Shown in pieces: positions 1 through 15,776 of a DNA stretch of 24,356 nucleotides. The position numbers were made by a program, and so were the translations under genes. How positions within the stretch are numbered: position 1 is the first letter of the stretch; every line of letters begins with the position of its first letter. The stretch lies in the IMG/VR virus record IMGVR_UViG_3300010148_000115, positions 1 to 24,356 of that record; one strand, 5' to 3'. This DNA comes from a virus. The notes beneath the pieces were generated by a model. It was not told where the DNA came from. It worked only from the letters and a program-made list of their open reading frames with translations, and did no database searches.

Positions 1-439
1 CAACCGGCTTTTGTGTTGGGTGGATTTTGCGTAGAGTGAAATTGTCCTTTTTAAATAGCGCCGCTGGTTTATTGAATGATGTCCATGCCATCTCCCACTG
101 TGAGAAATTGGTCCACGGTTGACATTTGTCCCATGCAATCACACAACGTGTGGGAAGCAGATCAAAGTAATTTCCACCCCATATGATTTGATTTTTGGAG
201 ACTCTCATCAACTCCTCAAAATACTCCGGTGGAGGTGCTTTGTCCCACTGTTGGATTTTGGTGTCCGTGTTGAGTGCTCTTTTGGCCAATTTACCGGCTC
301 CACGATACGCGCCAACGGTCCCCAACTCATATGGTGGATCTACGATGGCCAGATCCAAACAATCATCCGCCATCTCTCTCATAGCGTCCAGACAATCACG
401 GTGGTGAAGTGGGATGTCATCCATTTGATATGTGCTCAT
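1..439 (-). CDS. Beta-class DNA methyltransferase (partial, C-terminus beyond window)
   Basis: This is an S-adenosylmethionine-dependent DNA amino-methyltransferase (N6-adenine or N4-cytosine), read by hand because the frame is open to the window edge. The 146 visible residues show the catalytic DPPY motif (34-37), a central NQIIWGGNYF segment (83-92) typical of phage adenine methylases, and HPTQKPV at 140-146. The order DPPY first and HPTQKP later, with the SAM-binding FxGxG motif expected after it, is that of the beta class, so motif I lies outside the window. The ATG at 439 is chosen because GGAGG lies 4 bases upstream and the start overlaps the upstream cytosine methyltransferase stop as ATGA. 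It probably protects phage DNA from host restriction. The target base and site cannot be read from the sequence. Confidence 0.9.
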   Translation of the reverse strand, partial: MSTYQMDDIPLHHRDCLDAMREMADDCLDLAIVDPPYELGTVGAYRGAGKLAKRALNTDTKIQQWDKAPPPEYFEELMRVSKNQIIWGGNYFDLLPTRCVIAWDKCQPWTNFSQWEMAWTSFNKPAALFKKDNFTLRKIHPTQKPV

Positions 440-1215
440 TTATCCTCCAAAAGGTCATCCAATAAACCGGATTTTAGTATTTGATCACCCACCCATTGTG
501 AGCACTGTGGGACAATCGCATTACCCAAAGCCTTCAATCGAGCCACCCTATTGGGAATCCCATCATCCACTCCACAAAATGGGGATGGACGAGGAGTTTT
601 TGACCAATAGCCTCCTCCATTGTCACTCCCATGGCCATCGCTATCTCCACACCAAGAATGTGATTGCATACCTTTTCTCGTCTCCAACATCCCTCCTTTG
701 ATGGCTCGTAATTTGTCGCCGCTGTTGGGGTAGGCAACACAAAACCAGCGCTTCCTGACGTGTGGCGCTCCAAATTGTTTAGCGGATATAATCGTCCATT
801 CACAGTCATACCCGATTTGGGCAAGGCTTCCAACAACGTCGGGGCCGCCCACCCGAATGATGTTTGCAACATTTTCCATGATGATGAGTCGTGGTCGAAG
901 TTCGCTAGCAATTCGCCACATCTCCCACCATAAACCAGATTTGTTTTCATTTTCTAATCCTTCCATTTTTCCGGCCAATGAGATGGACTGACATGGGAAG
1001 CCCCCAATCAATACGTCCACCGGCTCCACGTTGTTTTTGTTGATGTTTCTGACATCGTTATAAATTGTTGATTTTGGCCAATGTTTGGAGAGTATCTTTT
1101 GACAATACTTCTCTCTCTCCACTTGCCAAATGGTCTCAGCGTTACCCCATGAGCGCTCCAATCCCAACTCAAAGCCGCCTATTCCGGCAAAAAGTGATCC
1201 AATTTTTACAGTCAT
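436..1215 (-). CDS. C5-cytosine DNA methyltransferase (Dcm family)
   Basis: Transfers a methyl group from SAM to carbon 5 of cytosine in DNA. Motif I (SLFAGIGGFELGL, about 7-19), motif IV with catalytic Cys75 in GGFPCQS, motif VI MENV (113-116), motif VIII around GAPHVRKRWF (149-158) and motif X GNAIVP (231-236) are all present and in the right order. At 259 residues it is compact, so the target-recognition region between motifs VIII and X is short. The start overlaps the primase-like gene stop as ATGA, with GGAG upstream, and its stop overlaps the next methyltransferase, so the three are likely co-translated. It probably modifies phage DNA. An unusual point is a second open frame within it (534-950), described separately. 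Confidence 0.95.
   Translation of the reverse strand: MTVKIGSLFAGIGGFELGLERSWGNAETIWQVEREKYCQKILSKHWPKSTIYNDVRNINKNNVEPVDVLIGGFPCQSISLAGKMEGLENENKSGLWWEMWRIASELRPRLIIMENVANIIRVGGPDVVGSLAQIGYDCEWTIISAKQFGAPHVRKRWFCVAYPNSGDKLRAIKGGMLETRKGMQSHSWCGDSDGHGSDNGGGYWSKTPRPSPFCGVDDGIPNRVARLKALGNAIVPQCSQWVGDQILKSGLLDDLLEDK
534..950 (-). CDS. Candidate overprinted gene inside the C5-methyltransferase (WMMGFPIGW family-like)
   Basis: A 138-codon frame, +1 relative to the C5-methyltransferase, would normally be dismissed as a shadow. However, its ATG has GGAAGGA 7 bases upstream. The protein also carries a run of motifs I recognise from stand-alone phage proteins of unknown function: DHDSSSWKMLQ (about 19-29), SGMTVNGRLYPL, SGSAGFVLPTPTAA, and near the end HFVEWMMGFPIGWLD. 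Those motifs lie on the same bases as methyltransferase motifs VI, VIII and X read in the other frame. Function is unknown. The family resemblance is from memory, not a search. The alternative is that conserved methyltransferase codons create a passive look-alike that is never translated. Confidence 0.42.
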   Translation of the reverse strand: MKTNLVYGGRCGELLANFDHDSSSWKMLQTSFGWAAPTLLEALPKSGMTVNGRLYPLNNLERHTSGSAGFVLPTPTAATNYEPSKEGCWRREKVCNHILGVEIAMAMGVTMEEAIGQKLLVHPHFVEWMMGFPIGWLD

Positions 1216-2932: not shown

Positions 2933-3040
2933 CTAGGCTCCCAACATCCACACCAAAAGCGCGAATGTGAATGGTACAGTTGAGAAGGCTAGGACCACCA
3001 ACGCGGTCCCAATGATTGTGTCTTTGATACGTTGTCTCAT
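2933..3040 (-). CDS. Single-span membrane peptide, 35 aa
   Basis: A short positively charged N-terminus (MRQRIKD) precedes one long hydrophobic stretch (about residues 9-33), which predicts a small inner-membrane peptide with its N-terminus in the cytoplasm. GGGAG lies 6 bases before the ATG. The start comes one base after the stop of the upstream gene, and the next gene starts one base after its own stop, so it sits firmly within the operon. A longer frame reaching 3259 exists but has no matching start signal. Function is unknown; superinfection exclusion and host membrane modulation are possibilities, not evidence-based calls. Confidence 0.65.
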   Translation of the reverse strand: MRQRIKDTIIGTALVVLAFSTVPFTFALLVWMLGA

Positions 3041-3041
3041 T

Positions 3042-3419
3042 TTACTCTCCCTTCTCAATGATTTGGATGTCGTGGATGTTATCAAAGTCCCAAATGATTG
3101 ACTCCATGTTTTCAAGTGAAAATGGATACCATTTTGTGAGTCCGCTGTGATAGATGACCACGATGATTTTGTTTTTGTCGACAGTTTCTTCGACAGTTTC
3201 TTCGACAGTTTCTTCGACGTGTAATTTCCATTTGTAAACCCATTGCCCTTTTTGTTCATTGTATGAAATTACCATGTCGTAAAGTTCACCAGATGAGTTT
3301 TCCATAACAATATGATGTTGAATTGATGTCGCGTCCGGATCGTTTGAATTGGCTAGATGTTCCATTAATTGTAAAAATTTTGTATAAGTAAATTTATTGA
3401 TATATTCACATTTTGACAT
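3042..3419 (-). CDS. Hypothetical early protein with VEET repeats, 125 aa
   Basis: No family recognised. The ATG at 3419 is chosen over longer frames because GGAG lies 7 bases upstream and the frame further up runs through an intergenic hairpin. The protein is polar and acidic, with aromatic residues in YKWKLHV and KWYPFSLEN. In the middle (about 68-80) the sequence VEET is repeated three times, encoded by three exact 12-bp units. Cytosolic, with no signal or membrane segment. As the second gene of the early leftward operon it may be one of the small phage proteins that act on the host soon after infection, but this is inference from position only. Confidence 0.72.
   Translation of the reverse strand: MSKCEYINKFTYTKFLQLMEHLANSNDPDATSIQHHIVMENSSGELYDMVISYNEQKGQWVYKWKLHVEETVEETVEETVDKNKIIVVIYHSGLTKWYPFSLENMESIIWDFDNIHDIQIIEKGE
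3179..3218. repeat. Three exact 12-bp tandem repeats in an early gene
   Basis: The unit CGACAGTTTCTT occurs three times without a mismatch from 3179 to 3214, with four further matching bases after it. The length of 12 keeps the reading frame and gives the VEET protein repeat on the minus strand. Such a tract can gain or lose units by slippage. Confidence 0.93.
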
Positions 3420-3439
3420 GATAGGCTCCGATTGATTGT

Positions 3440-3463
3440 GGAGAGACTCATTGGAGCCTCTCC
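3440..3463 (-). promoter_or_regulatory. Intergenic hairpin in the early leftward transcript
   Basis: On the minus strand GGAGAG pairs with CTCTCC, continues through a G-U wobble and a CTC/GAG step, and closes on a four-base CAAT loop. The result is a 10-pair stem in RNA. The wobble becomes an A-C mismatch on the opposite strand, so the structure suits the leftward mRNA. It fills the 58-base gap between the 59-aa and 125-aa genes. No U-run follows, so it is more likely an mRNA stability, processing or translational control element than a terminator. Confidence 0.5.
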
Positions 3464-3477
3464 GGTTTGTTGATTGA

Positions 3478-3657
3478 TTATTTGTTGAGAGTTGATTTTT
3501 TGTACTCAACATATTTTTTGAGTTGGTCAATGTCTCCACCTTTGATTTTGTAGAGTGAAACACCATCTTCAAACATGTGGAGAGTATTGGTGAAAATCGC
3601 TTTACAAAGAAATTTTTTGAGTTGAGGCTTTGAAAAGTTGTTGAAACGAGTAGACAT
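3478..3657 (-). CDS. Hypothetical first gene of the early operon, 59 aa
   Basis: A small basic protein with no recognised family. The ATG at 3657 is selected because GGAG sits 7 bases upstream. A longer frame to 3858 crosses the AT-rich promoter region and lacks a Shine-Dalgarno. The composition is Lys- and Phe-rich (KKFLCKAIFTNTLHMFEDG), with a C-terminal LKKYVEYKKS helix, and there is no membrane segment. It is the promoter-proximal gene of the leftward early operon, a position often held by small host-takeover proteins. Nothing in the sequence shows what it does. Confidence 0.65.
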   Translation of the reverse strand: MSTRFNNFSKPQLKKFLCKAIFTNTLHMFEDGVSLYKIKGGDIDQLKKYVEYKKSTLNK

Positions 3658-10400: not shown

Positions 10401-10716
10401 CGGCTGGAGTTTGCTCCATGGTTATGTCCATCACTTTGGATGGAGTCTCGTGACCATATTGGAGAGCGTCCGTGGAATACTTCCAAACAAAACCAGCATT
10501 ATCTTGGATGTGACCAGGCTCGTGGGTTTTGATCTGGACGTCTTGAGTTTGTACACCTTTGGACGTCAACACCAAAGGAGAGTTGTTATTTGATTGTGGT
10601 ATCCCAGATAATGATCCATTTTGAGTCAATGTGGACTCTTCACTCCAAAAATGATCCGTTGTGAGTTTAAACGGGACCAAAAATCCTCGTATGCTGTTGG
10701 GTGTTACATTAGCCAT
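7432..10716 (-). CDS. Large tail protein with sialidase-type beta-propeller repeats, candidate receptor-binding protein
   Basis: A 1094-residue virion protein. The N-terminal half has short beta-strand repeats and an exact Asp-box SxDxGxTW (STDDGVTW, about 199-206) plus a degenerate copy STNGGLKF (about 269-276), the hallmark of sialidase-like propellers. A middle region (about 490-660) is Thr-, Gly- and Val-rich and could be a concanavalin-like carbohydrate-binding module. The rest is beta-rich with no known motif. Sialidase catalysis cannot be confirmed: an Arg triad and Glu/Tyr pair were not located. Likely role is glycan binding or cleavage at the host surface. ATG 10716 is preferred over the TTG three bases earlier because GGAGG is 6 bases upstream and it forms TGATG with the tape measure stop. 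A 21-bp inverted repeat lies inside (8013-8081). Confidence 0.68.
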   Translation of the reverse strand: MANVTPNSIRGFLVPFKLTTDHFWSEESTLTQNGSLSGIPQSNNNSPLVLTSKGVQTQDVQIKTHEPGHIQDNAGFVWKYSTDALQYGHETPSKVMDITMEQTPAVNNKYIPRHTIRLSTGTILVAVEHTTVTLNNTRVYRIGVDGTASSVQIDSVDSSTLSSNKRFPTVMELPNGSINLAVWVIDDIKEVANVQIYKSTDDGVTWTLVSSRALPEDVDVSSTFGAGALGFELQPLTMAATANQVLLFAALNIHDTTPTFGSLVRQYGSTNGGLKFQFVDVSEAADGSHFYLPQIVEFNGVLIIGYISSADSIKFTRVTNAFDSVFDQIGLIPADSISGSFATGTANRLTGGDWTLVLDTDGRLYIYINNLSKIIIHGGYSDLAGVSVEEYAKKWYQYGNTTGTFANSRVIDFRTPTSSGGGCENIKAVAGQGEILLFCNWTNIGTNSVADGLHLITLGGWSSQQYGRLEPYPIDSQWGYDLSTWAPFDKPDQNSLWTKNVTGAATDILGGDHITLNATGSDVIYFSQGVSDKTNGVTLHTKITNVTGGTVTRGTAIGVQIQTQSTTNTYHLEIVVGSNRIHVYDVHAGYGSAVGSATGLTLTNGIQILCHLDNSNGQVHVYFGDAFSPRQYQKITGTLTTDSNTTQQIYWGCPTAGGADRTADFHFFSYGLGSTVGNGWIDGDINAKKYSSRGFDTQIRDGLTISTLDGPAREGDEYTLSPQFGSPVQRTLHTVSPSPHVGWRSDAVANADTTAVSTSSIAWYLDTTLKGTAVSHTESQAIGVHLTGVNFKQFLIETHNGTSWSTAATVDNSVGGAVNFTRVGAAIHSTQASGPYLHLNECAGWSVLLDDGAGNIVQRRVQSNGDGVLANTSSKKSYLTLFGIKTTDPASGTMILIPNSVTVLINKDELSGFRLNITSQKTAEGYFEIGTMVAGPLIIAGPQYGRGRTIQIESNVIENTAPNGTIYTSSRGSDGRVVRIAWTDGVDTSSLNAAQAAPDHYELYTGQPIAVNGSAPTAMMGLIQYLKSSQNAIVYLPNIATGPSSEVVLNRYHNQILTTIGTEIQIDHVIGDELLPNNMGEVFRVSTVLLREVR
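8013..8081. repeat. Perfect 21-bp inverted repeat inside the receptor-binding candidate
   Basis: Arms 8013-8033 and 8061-8081 are exact reverse complements (TGACACTGTTCGGGATC at the outer end), separated by 27 bases. On the minus-strand mRNA this is a 21-pair stem. The heptamer CGGGATC also occurs in the loop at 8049-8055, so the arm at 8065-8071 can pair with either partner. The arms encode LTLFGIK and ILIPNSV, about residues 879-902. Confidence 0.95.
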
Positions 10717-12959
10717 CAATATCCTCCACTTCCAGCGCGTTGAGACATCCGTTGGCTCATCGCTCTATTGTACCTATCAAAGTGTTTAAAAGGTTGTATT
10801 ATCACGACCTGTGACCCAACACCACCACCATTTTGGAGCGCTTGGACACCTTGCTGACCTCCCAACCGATCCACGGTGGCTCGATCCAACACGGCCTCTC
10901 CGCGAAGAAGATTGGCATTCACCACATCTGGAGCGCCATCCGATTGACCTACCATTCCACCCACATCGAATTTGGGTGGCTGTTGAGAAGCCACGGACGC
11001 GGTTTGGGCTCCGGCTATAGCCGTTAAAGACGCGATCCGTATCCCACGGGCTATGGGTGGCAGTGTTAACGCTTGAGCAATACCAGCGGCCAATTTGAAA
11101 GCGATGTCCGCCATGGTGGCGGCTTTGTTGCGCTTAAACTCTCTCAACTTCATTTCTTTTTGTTGATCTTGGAATCCCTTTTCAATTGATGATTTCGTCA
11201 CCGCCGCTTCGTTAGCGCTTATCTCGCCACGTTTGTATAACTCATCGATTGCTTTGGTCTCCTCATCCACTTGATTTTTGATTTGTTCGAGTTGACTTTG
11301 ATTGATGTCCGAGAATGCTTGAGAGATGGCTCCAAAAGCCTCAAATATGTTTTGACCCATGGAGGTGATCATAGATATTTTTTCTTGATACTTCTCAATG
11401 ATCATTTGTTGGTTTTGGAGTTCCAAATCCGTCTCATCTTGGATTTGTTCGAGTCGCTTTTGATAGGCCTCATCTCTCAACGCGGTCATCTCATTGATCT
11501 CCGCTTTTCTGTTTTCAGCGCTCAAATCTTCCAAAGTGTTGATCTCATCCACCAGTTGATTTAGTCTCTCTTGCTCCTCAACCGACAACTCACGGGAGGA
11601 CGCTTGATCCAATAGGACTCCCATTTGATAGTCTAATTCTTTGGTTTGATTCTCAATCTCATTTCCAAGTTGGTGGACCGCTCGCCGTTGTTTTTCGTAT
11701 TCTGGAGTTAATCGATCCGATACTTTTAACGTCAAATCATCAATGATGTCCAATGAGTCATTAAAATCAATGTTGAGTTGTTTGTTGAGTTCCATGAGTG
11801 CTTTGGTGGCTGCTGCCATTTTATTGATGTTATTTTGTGCGCGGTCAGCACCTTCCGCGGTCCGCTCCATGGTTTGTGGACCCATTGATATGGATGACAA
11901 CTCATTGAACCGATCCAACTCATCATTGGCGATGACAAACACATTGGAGAGATTGTCAACCGCTGTGGATGTCTCACGTTGGAGATCACCCAACACCACA
12001 CGAGCGCCATCCACATCTCCACTCATGGCCATCGCCATGACTTGGACCATCCCAATTGTATTCTCAAATGATTGAGAGATTCCACCCAATACGGTTCCAA
12101 ATACGGATCCCATAAACACAACGGCTTTGGAAGCCTCTTGGACAGCCATGTTTATACTATTTGGACCAGCAATGGAGGCTATGACATTCTGGAGAGTACC
12201 CATTGAGACGGTCCCAAACTCGGCCATCACTCTTTGGAATTGTGCCATTGAGTTGATCCCATCCTCATTGATGGCCACACCAAACTCACTCGCCAACGCG
12301 CTCATTGATTCGAGGTTTTCCAACGCTCCGGATTGGATGAGCGCTGGTCCACTTTGACGGCCAAATAATTCCATGGCCATCGCATTTCGTTGGGTTTGAT
12401 TCTCCATGGATCCCAAAGCCTTGACGGTCTCATTAAATACCGTATCCGCGTCCCTCAACTCTCCATTGGAGTCTTTGACACTGACACCCAATTGACCAAA
12501 TGTCTCCTCAAGGTTTTTGGAACCACTCGCGGCGGCATCCATCGACCCTTGGAACTTTATCAAACCACCTTCCAGATTAGCAAAGGCCAAACCGGATCCC
12601 TCCGCGGCCAATCTCAACCCGGCCAATGTATCAACGGCGATTCCGGTTTTTGTGGAAGCATCCACCAGCTCATTGGTGAGGTCAGCAAATTTTTGTGATA
12701 ACAACACCACACCACCCGTCACGGCGGCCACACTCACTCCAACCATCGCCATGGATTTGCCAATCTTTTTCATTTTCTTGGAGACGTTTTTGGATGTCTT
12801 GTCCGCGCTGGACTCCATTTTCTTGAAATTTTTGTCCAACTCTCCAGCGGCTTTTGTCGCTTGTTTGTCCGTGATGTTTGGGATCTTCTTAAGTGCTCTC
12901 TCCAATTGCTCGGTTGAAGCACTGTAATTAATCGCTACACTCTTATTGACGTCCGCCAT
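10716..12959 (-). CDS. Tail tape measure protein
   Basis: Sets tail length and probably helps pass DNA through the membrane. The 747 residues start with a basic helical region, followed by a hydrophobic helix (about 70-89, SMAMVGVSVAAVTGGVVLLS). Long helical stretches then carry Gln, Glu and Lys heptads (about 395-570, including LDYQMGVLLDQASSRELSVEEQERL). The C-terminal part is Gly- and Ala-rich (DVGGMVGQSDGAPDV) as in many tape measures. If all residues are helical at about 0.15 nm each, the tail would be near 110 nm. ATG 12959 is chosen over the TTG at 12971 since GGAGAGAGTT precedes it. The stop and the next start share one base as TGATG. Confidence 0.92.
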   Translation of the reverse strand: MADVNKSVAINYSASTEQLERALKKIPNITDKQATKAAGELDKNFKKMESSADKTSKNVSKKMKKIGKSMAMVGVSVAAVTGGVVLLSQKFADLTNELVDASTKTGIAVDTLAGLRLAAEGSGLAFANLEGGLIKFQGSMDAAASGSKNLEETFGQLGVSVKDSNGELRDADTVFNETVKALGSMENQTQRNAMAMELFGRQSGPALIQSGALENLESMSALASEFGVAINEDGINSMAQFQRVMAEFGTVSMGTLQNVIASIAGPNSINMAVQEASKAVVFMGSVFGTVLGGISQSFENTIGMVQVMAMAMSGDVDGARVVLGDLQRETSTAVDNLSNVFVIANDELDRFNELSSISMGPQTMERTAEGADRAQNNINKMAAATKALMELNKQLNIDFNDSLDIIDDLTLKVSDRLTPEYEKQRRAVHQLGNEIENQTKELDYQMGVLLDQASSRELSVEEQERLNQLVDEINTLEDLSAENRKAEINEMTALRDEAYQKRLEQIQDETDLELQNQQMIIEKYQEKISMITSMGQNIFEAFGAISQAFSDINQSQLEQIKNQVDEETKAIDELYKRGEISANEAAVTKSSIEKGFQDQQKEMKLREFKRNKAATMADIAFKLAAGIAQALTLPPIARGIRIASLTAIAGAQTASVASQQPPKFDVGGMVGQSDGAPDVVNANLLRGEAVLDRATVDRLGGQQGVQALQNGGGVGSQVVIIQPFKHFDRYNRAMSQRMSQRAGSGGY

Positions 12960-13059
12960 AACTCTCTCCAATCACCACAAACACGATGGCCATAAGTATC
13001 AATACACCATACACAAAACATTTGACACGTGCTGTCATCATTTTGACAAACTCTCTCAT
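12943..13059 (-). CDS. 38-aa single-span membrane peptide before the tape measure
   Basis: Found by reading the 100-base gap before the tape measure gene. It starts as ATGA on the stop of the previous gene and ends 17 bases inside the tape measure gene. Residues 1-14 are positively charged (MREFVKMMTARVKC) and 15-30 form one hydrophobic span (FVYGVLILMAIVFVVI), then a polar GESYGGRQ. A Shine-Dalgarno is weak (GAAAAAG), so coupled translation is needed. Function is unknown. It could be chance because short hydrophobic frames are common, but the length, overlap and charge pattern fit a real gene. Confidence 0.48.
   Translation of the reverse strand: MREFVKMMTARVKCFVYGVLILMAIVFVVIGESYGGRQ
13023..13037. 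promoter_or_regulatory. TGACA-N5-TGTCA palindrome, copy 2
   Basis: TGACA-CGTGC-TGTCA lies within the small membrane peptide gene, about 64 bases ahead of the tape measure start. Same 10-base core as copies at 5776 and 18124. Confidence 0.35.
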
Positions 13060-15020: not shown

Positions 15021-15776
15021 CTAGCGTCTCCGATACCATATGGGTGGAGCGCTGGTGTATATGACTCCAAGATTGGCACGGCGGCCATTTTTGTCGTCCA
15101 CTTTGCCATCTTGGTTTTGATCATATGTAAACTTAAGACGCTTGAAATCAAATTCCATCTCTTTCCGATGGGTTTTGGCTAAATCCAAATATCGTCCCTC
15201 TCCCAATCCACTGGAGTCCATGTCCTTGAATATGAGATAAAAGGTGAGATTTTTATGGCATGATCTCAACGATTGTGGAGACATAATCAAATATTCAATA
15301 TTGCCTTGGTCTCTCACCCGTTGGATAAGTTGGACCCAGGCCTCATCAATGTACGTTTGATAACTGGAGCCCAATGATGATGGACGGATGGAAGCCAAAT
15401 CCGAATATTCCGCTTCCAAATCCAAATCACTGATCACCGGATACAAAGCACTTAACGCGATGGCGGTGGGTTTTTTGAAGGTGTGGACCACTCCACCAAT
15501 CGTCAACTCCCAATATTGGAGATATCCGTCATCCAATGAGAGTGTGGTTGGAAGTTCACTGGGGGAGATTGTGTATGTTGCCACGTTGGCGATGATTGAC
15601 ACGGATGTCCGAGATATAACGTCGTTACCATTTGGATCTTGAAGTCTGAAATATGCCGCGGTGGGTGATACCAATGATCCATCCCTGTAAATAGGGAGGT
15701 CCACAGTGCACCCACGCGATCTCTCAAGTACCTCATGGATCCGGATACGCGGCGCATATAGTCTCTCGGTTGCCAT
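15021..15776 (-). CDS. Putative head-tail connector protein with EF-hand-like loop, 251 aa
   Basis: Residues 1-110 are strand-rich (TVDLPIYRDGSLVSPTAAYF), as in an Ig-like or BppU-like beta sandwich. Residues 125-210 are helical, with many aromatics (YIDEAWVQLIQRVRDQGN), resembling gp6-type head-tail connectors. Near the end, DQNQDGKVDD (219-228) matches the DxNxDGxxD calcium-binding loop of EF-hand and dockerin proteins. AAGGAT lies 6-7 bases before the ATG, and the stop abuts the next gene start. Function is inferred from place between the capsid genes and tail tube. A decoration or neck role is an alternative. Confidence 0.5.
   Translation of the reverse strand: MATERLYAPRIRIHEVLERSRGCTVDLPIYRDGSLVSPTAAYFRLQDPNGNDVISRTSVSIIANVATYTISPSELPTTLSLDDGYLQYWELTIGGVVHTFKKPTAIALSALYPVISDLDLEAEYSDLASIRPSSLGSSYQTYIDEAWVQLIQRVRDQGNIEYLIMSPQSLRSCHKNLTFYLIFKDMDSSGLGEGRYLDLAKTHRKEMEFDFKRLKFTYDQNQDGKVDDKNGRRANLGVIYTSAPPIWYRRR

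Follow-up and report, generated by a model that had tools for sequence, protein, structure and literature searches.

M.EcoHK31I was reportedly described as a two-polypeptide C5-cytosine DNA methyltransferase (C5-MTase) by Lee, Kam and Shaw in 1995. Its small chain is read in another frame, nested inside the gene of the large chain. In C5-MTases of the M.HhaI type, motifs I-VIII and X make up the large domain, while the small domain consists of the recognition region together with motif IX (PMC3404938). The large chain of M.EcoHK31I (YGGCCR) holds motifs I-VIII and X, and the small chain motif IX, with the recognition domain described in the large chain; a further two-polypeptide enzyme, M.AquI (CYCGRG), is split within the variable region (PMC3404938). 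Long gene overlaps are uncommon in cells and large phages and frequently turn out to be artefacts, as a reviewer has remarked (PMC2174442). We searched the literature on phage MTases with overlapping frames and found none beyond the work on M.EcoHK31I and M.AquI.

In the present study we describe a C5-MTase gene, here called alpha, with an open reading frame (ORF) nested in its +1 frame, here called beta, in a viral DNA stretch of 24,356 nucleotides (the whole of which is referred to as the window). A sequence-only reading had claimed a 138-codon +1 ORF inside this gene, with GGAAGGA 7 bases before its ATG; both are present, and the correspondences it listed between the motifs of beta and the MTase motifs read in the other frame are correct. 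We consider it likely that the two frames encode two polypeptides of one split C5-cytosine methyltransferase, with the small domain in the +1 frame, as in M.EcoHK31I.

Results

Arrangement of the two reading frames

The features of the locus are collected in Table 1. The motif order along the DNA is canonical, with motifs I-VIII in frame 0, the variable region and motif IX in the +1 frame, and motif X again in frame 0. Alpha has the same large domain as M.HhaI and other one-chain C5-MTases, and the order of I-VIII, recognition region, IX and X is kept, but in the window the +1 frame holds both the recognition region and motif IX. The domain composition of M.HhaI-type enzymes thus matches the contents of the two frames, which therefore split the enzyme at its domain boundary. 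The window pair shares with M.EcoHK31I, as described in the literature, the distribution of motifs (I-VIII and X in the large chain, IX in the small chain), and also a small chain nested in the gene of the large chain. The two may differ in the recognition domain, which is described in the large chain of M.EcoHK31I; in the window, constraint on the variable region favours the frame of the small chain, though both frames are constrained there.

Table 1. Features of the nested methyltransferase locus (window coordinates).
Feature	Position	Strand	Basis
Alpha: frame-0 C5-cytosine DNA methyltransferase of 259 aa, with motifs I-VIII and X but no motif IX	436..1215	-	
Beta: 138-aa ORF nested in alpha, +1 frame; start codon ATG at 950, stop at 534	534..950	-	
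Shine-Dalgarno-like GGAAGGA, 7 bases 5' of the beta ATG	958..964	-	
Beta N-terminal part (YD.DSSSW+M, P+SGM..NG..Y.L), over alpha motifs IV-VIII	714..950	-	
Beta variable region from LPTPTA onward, candidate target-recognition region	588..737	-	substitution pattern in relatives
Beta C-terminus HPHFVEWMMGFPIGWLD, putative motif IX equivalent	537..587	-	alignment via longer relatives
Alpha residues 171-225, read over the beta variable region, predicted disordered; frame stays open to motif X	541..705	-	
Alpha motif X (RLKALGNAIVPQ), starting at the end of beta	466..534	-	

Directly after alpha, a DPPY-type DNA methyltransferase gene (window 2-439, minus strand) begins in a 4-base ATGA start-stop overlap, which suggests coupled translation of two methyltransferases. 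Elsewhere in the window, a short tandem repeat lies where two minus-strand ORFs in different frames (2933-3259 and 3042-3572) overlap; one of them reads it as SKKLSKKLSKKLS, the other as EETVEETVEETV. Two minus-strand genes have moderately long open runs in +1, namely 10716-12971 (96 codons, reached in 13/200 shuffles) and 15021-15776 (90 codons, reached in 9/200).

Alpha is a large domain without motif IX

Alpha carries motifs I, IV (PCQ), VI (ENV), VIII and X in one chain, the set by which a C5-MTase is recognised. Its match to PF00145 (E=2.6e-46) is confined to residues 4-167, and its profile matches residues 12-181 of M.HhaI, which was also the best Foldseek match of the alpha model (about 170 columns). 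Among 68 alpha sequences, G72, P74, C75, E114, N115, R154, R156 and N232 are invariant, and Q76 nearly so; in the motif X segment, N232 and V235 are invariant and G231 and P236 nearly invariant. AF2 predicted residues 1-160 (motifs I-VIII) with pLDDT 90-98 and residues 231-250 (motif X) with 85-96, and residues 171-225, over the beta variable region, with 39-53. The recognition domain and motif IX of a one-chain enzyme were not found in alpha, in which the PF00145 match stops at residue 167 and residues 171-225 are predicted to be disordered. The alpha frame must nevertheless stay open across the variable region, because motif X follows in frame 0.

The C-terminus of beta resembles motif IX

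Beta matches phrog_1008 (E=2.5e-18) and neither a Pfam nor an NCBIfam entry. The phrog_1008 label, 'DNA methyltransferase', hides the fact that its matches here are +1 readings of MTase genes. The C-terminal consensus of beta is [N/H]P.FVEW.MGFP.GW. The equivalent segment of longer relatives aligns with phrog_116 (437-498, E=1.5e-10), in a region that the canonical motif IX-X of two other loci (L188 and L027) covers as well (433-498), and gives a weak match to PF00145 (270-316). Through these longer relatives we infer that the short beta of the window also carries motif IX. The +1 protein had been put down as of unknown function; since its C-terminus aligns with motif IX of C5-MTases, beta most likely serves as a second subunit of the enzyme to which alpha belongs. 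Its N-terminal part has no counterpart in one-chain enzymes.

AF2 modelling of beta alone was weak (mean pLDDT 63.5, pTM 0.30), the best stretch being residues 101-138 (pLDDT 75-85), and no credible PDB fold was found for beta with either its sequence profiles or its model. A match to a glycolipid transfer protein in the PDB search (E 0.01) was judged to be due to chance. The poor prediction in isolation might fit one half of a domain pair, without being positive evidence for it.

Beta is constrained as a coding frame

In synonymous shuffles of the dcm gene, which kept the alpha protein and its codon usage, the +1 open run of the window (139 codons) was reached in 1/100 and 4/200 cases. Beta profile scores of the window (128.7 and 52.1 bits) exceeded all 20 shuffles (best 72 and 17), the window sequence being among those used to build the profile. 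For the other loci, which were not used to build it, the N-terminal profile gave a median of 76.5 bits for real and 29.8 for shuffled genes, with all 20 shuffles beaten in 232/249 loci, and the C-terminal profile 43.9 and -2.5 bits, with all shuffles beaten in 230/249. Part of the +1 similarity is a shadow of the alpha codons, as shuffled genes keep ~30 bits in the N-terminal part, and this explains less than half of it. Openness of the +1 frame beat all shuffles in 188/272 alpha genes as against 5/230 flanking genes.

Fourfold-degenerate sites differed at 0.47 outside the overlap and at 0.30 within it (paired test over 46 disjoint pairs, p=1.3e-6), the reduced synonymous change that dual coding was expected to leave. 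Along the gene, in 85 disjoint pairs, the value was 0.448 upstream of beta, fell to 0.270 where beta overlaps motifs IV-VIII and to 0.168 in the variable region, and was 0.421 downstream of beta. Earlier figures for the variable region used alpha-frame alignments, and the test was redone on ungapped DNA. In 13 disjoint ungapped pairs of equal length, differences fell at alpha positions 1, 2 and 3 in 347, 187 and 166 cases; alpha position 1 is the third (wobble) position of beta. Position 1 exceeded position 3, and identity was higher in the beta frame, in 12/12 informative pairs, with overall identities of 0.795 (beta frame) and 0.670 (alpha frame). Changes in the variable region are thus found at the wobble position of beta, and beta is therefore the leading frame there, and alpha over the catalytic motifs.

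The ATG and the Shine-Dalgarno-like site are kept in 17/18 members of the window clade, against an expectation of 8.1 under synonymous shuffling. The beta frame is already open within 8 codons of the aligned alpha start in 94 loci, and in the MSWLFSQ clade the beta ATG lies 4 bases after the alpha start codon. By chance, alpha would be open across the variable region in ~14/258 loci (beta-synonymous shuffles). A count of 258/258 open alpha frames is circular by construction, and the observed number was instead taken from a set of 269 loci, fetched by alpha and, independently, by beta. In 251/269 of these, a single alpha ORF spans motifs I-VIII and X and a single +1 ORF contains both ends of beta, each matching its own profile. 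A sequencing frameshift or a pseudogene was rejected, as both frames are intact in hundreds of loci.

The nested arrangement is widespread

A tblastn search of phages with beta returned 370 records. All inspected matches were the +1 frame of a C5-MTase gene, and included Sulfitobacter, Mycobacterium, Paenibacillus, Salmonella, Synechococcus, Pseudomonas, Acinetobacter and Bacteroides phages, among others. Both frames are annotated in Paenibacillus phage Jacopo, as two methyltransferases, and only the +1 frame in a Microcystis phage, as a hypothetical protein. With the +1 sequence as query, 80 viral and 80 bacterial loci were retrieved, and essentially all had an MTase in the -1 frame over beta. 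We also drew 398 species genomes evenly from the phylum to which an Acinetobacter locus belongs; 27 of them matched phrog_1008, nearly all again with a +1 ORF within an alpha gene.

No stand-alone beta was found in viral contigs, genome contigs, phages, or the 398-genome draw. The motifs that the sequence-only reading had attributed to 'independent phage proteins' are therefore +1 readings of methyltransferase genes. One candidate (L265) was rejected as a chimera without the catalytic half: a PAPS-reductase-like N-terminus runs in frame into an alpha C-terminus (L265:1592-2281 and 1851-2210), a recombinant that has no catalytic domain but retains motif IX and the recognition units of beta in +1.

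Variants of the arrangement

Split pairs in a +1 relation occur in Mycobacteriophage Kampy (78/77), Streptomyces phage Sebastisaurus (34/35) and Arthrobacter phage KBurrousTX (79/80). The second gene of each holds motifs IX and X, and these actinophage pairs are annotated as two 'DNA methylase' genes. M.AquI, with a catalytic chain of motifs I-VIII and a second chain carrying motif IX, is like Kampy 78/77 and Sebastisaurus 34/35; it differs from the window in that its small subunit has both IX and X, whereas the window keeps X in frame 0 and has an overlap of 138 codons. Philonius, MidnightRain and Fushigi have a frame-0 protein into which IX and X are fused, with the N-terminal part of beta still in +1. 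With IX and X in a second gene in actinophages and fused into frame 0 in other phages, the module therefore moves between chains. Beta may do more than complete the enzyme, as its N-terminal part persists in +1 beside in-frame IX and X.

One-chain phage C5-MTases with an in-frame motif IX (L313-L335, with L027/L312) have a +1 ORF of 155-208 codons over motifs I/II-VIII, which ends in CSLSDILEEEVPEKYFLSEE and holds no motif IX. In other C5-MTases LSDILEEEVPEKYFLS follows motif VIII in frame, so that the two segments would be +1 readings of each other. In these one-chain enzymes, fourfold sites differ at 0.16 inside the +1 ORF and 0.27 downstream, and openness beats all shuffles in 17/29 control genes. 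This constrained +1 ORF is a part of the story that lies outside the subunit explanation.

Two nearly identical genes (L014 and L015) have 1 difference in 97 overlap codons, yet their variable regions of 103 codons differ at 54 positions, as though the recognition regions had been swapped. In two other loci (L237 and L241), beta is intact over >430 codons, and stops interrupt the alpha frame after motif VIII and before motif X.

Discussion

The proposed split enzyme would work as follows. Frame 0 would yield alpha, with the catalytic large domain (motifs I-VIII), an unstructured linker and motif X, and the internal Shine-Dalgarno site and ATG would start translation of beta in the +1 frame. 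Beta would supply the small domain, with the variable target-recognition region and motif IX, and the two chains would associate into an active enzyme, as in M.EcoHK31I, which would probably protect phage DNA from host restriction. Overprinting may have given rise to beta, or a one-chain enzyme may have been split through a frameshift.

Beta could instead be a real overlapping gene for an independent protein, e.g. an anti-restriction or regulatory one, and no enzyme subunit. Whatever the arrangement, motifs IV-VIII are overlain in +1 by its conserved N-terminal part, even where IX is in frame 0, and a shorter +1 ORF occurs in one-chain enzymes as well. We nevertheless find such a protein unlikely, with no stand-alone copy found, an alpha that has no motif IX, and a beta C-terminus that aligns to motif IX and, in several phages, continues into motif X. 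A programmed +1 frameshift close to motif VIII, yielding a single fused chain, would suit five loci (L004, L180, L182, L270 and L273) in which alpha ends soon after motif VIII and IX and X then follow in +1; it has a small chance of being correct, given that beta is constrained far upstream of any such site and has its own Shine-Dalgarno site and ATG in the window clade, and an ATG 4 bases after the alpha start in the MSWLFSQ clade.

That the +1 ORF is an untranslated shadow of conserved MTase codons draws on the bits that shuffled genes keep in the N-terminal part of beta. Real scores, however, lie far above shuffles, fourfold sites are slowed, changes in the variable region follow the beta frame, and flanking genes have no excess openness. 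On the shuffles, codon positions and flanking-gene controls we ruled this explanation out, and grant it hardly any weight. Dual coding is thus supported, with homologues beyond the shadow expectation, constraint on both frames, and a start and Shine-Dalgarno site conserved in the window clade, while the other half of the sequence-only reading, a separate stand-alone family of unknown function, was not supported.

The nested arrangement is common to many phages and bacteria, mostly unannotated, with one characterised enzyme known before. What is new here is the breadth, the long overlap, and the placement of the recognition region in the +1 frame. A wider reading, of which we are doubtful as a whole and which we offer tentatively, is that a long same-strand overlap (about 140 to over 400 codons) was anciently kept across phages and many bacterial phyla as the standard encoding of one class of split C5-MTase, in which the second frame carries the recognition region and IX, IX and X change frames from one lineage to another, and the N-terminal part of beta has its own function, kept also in one-chain enzymes.

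The alpha/beta overlap exists in hundreds of copies, with a homology-based function for both frames. If the split enzyme is real, many phage 'dcm' proteins annotated as one-chain enzymes would be without motif IX, and probably without a recognition domain, and the matched, mostly unannotated beta ORFs would be needed to predict or express 'dcm' specificity.
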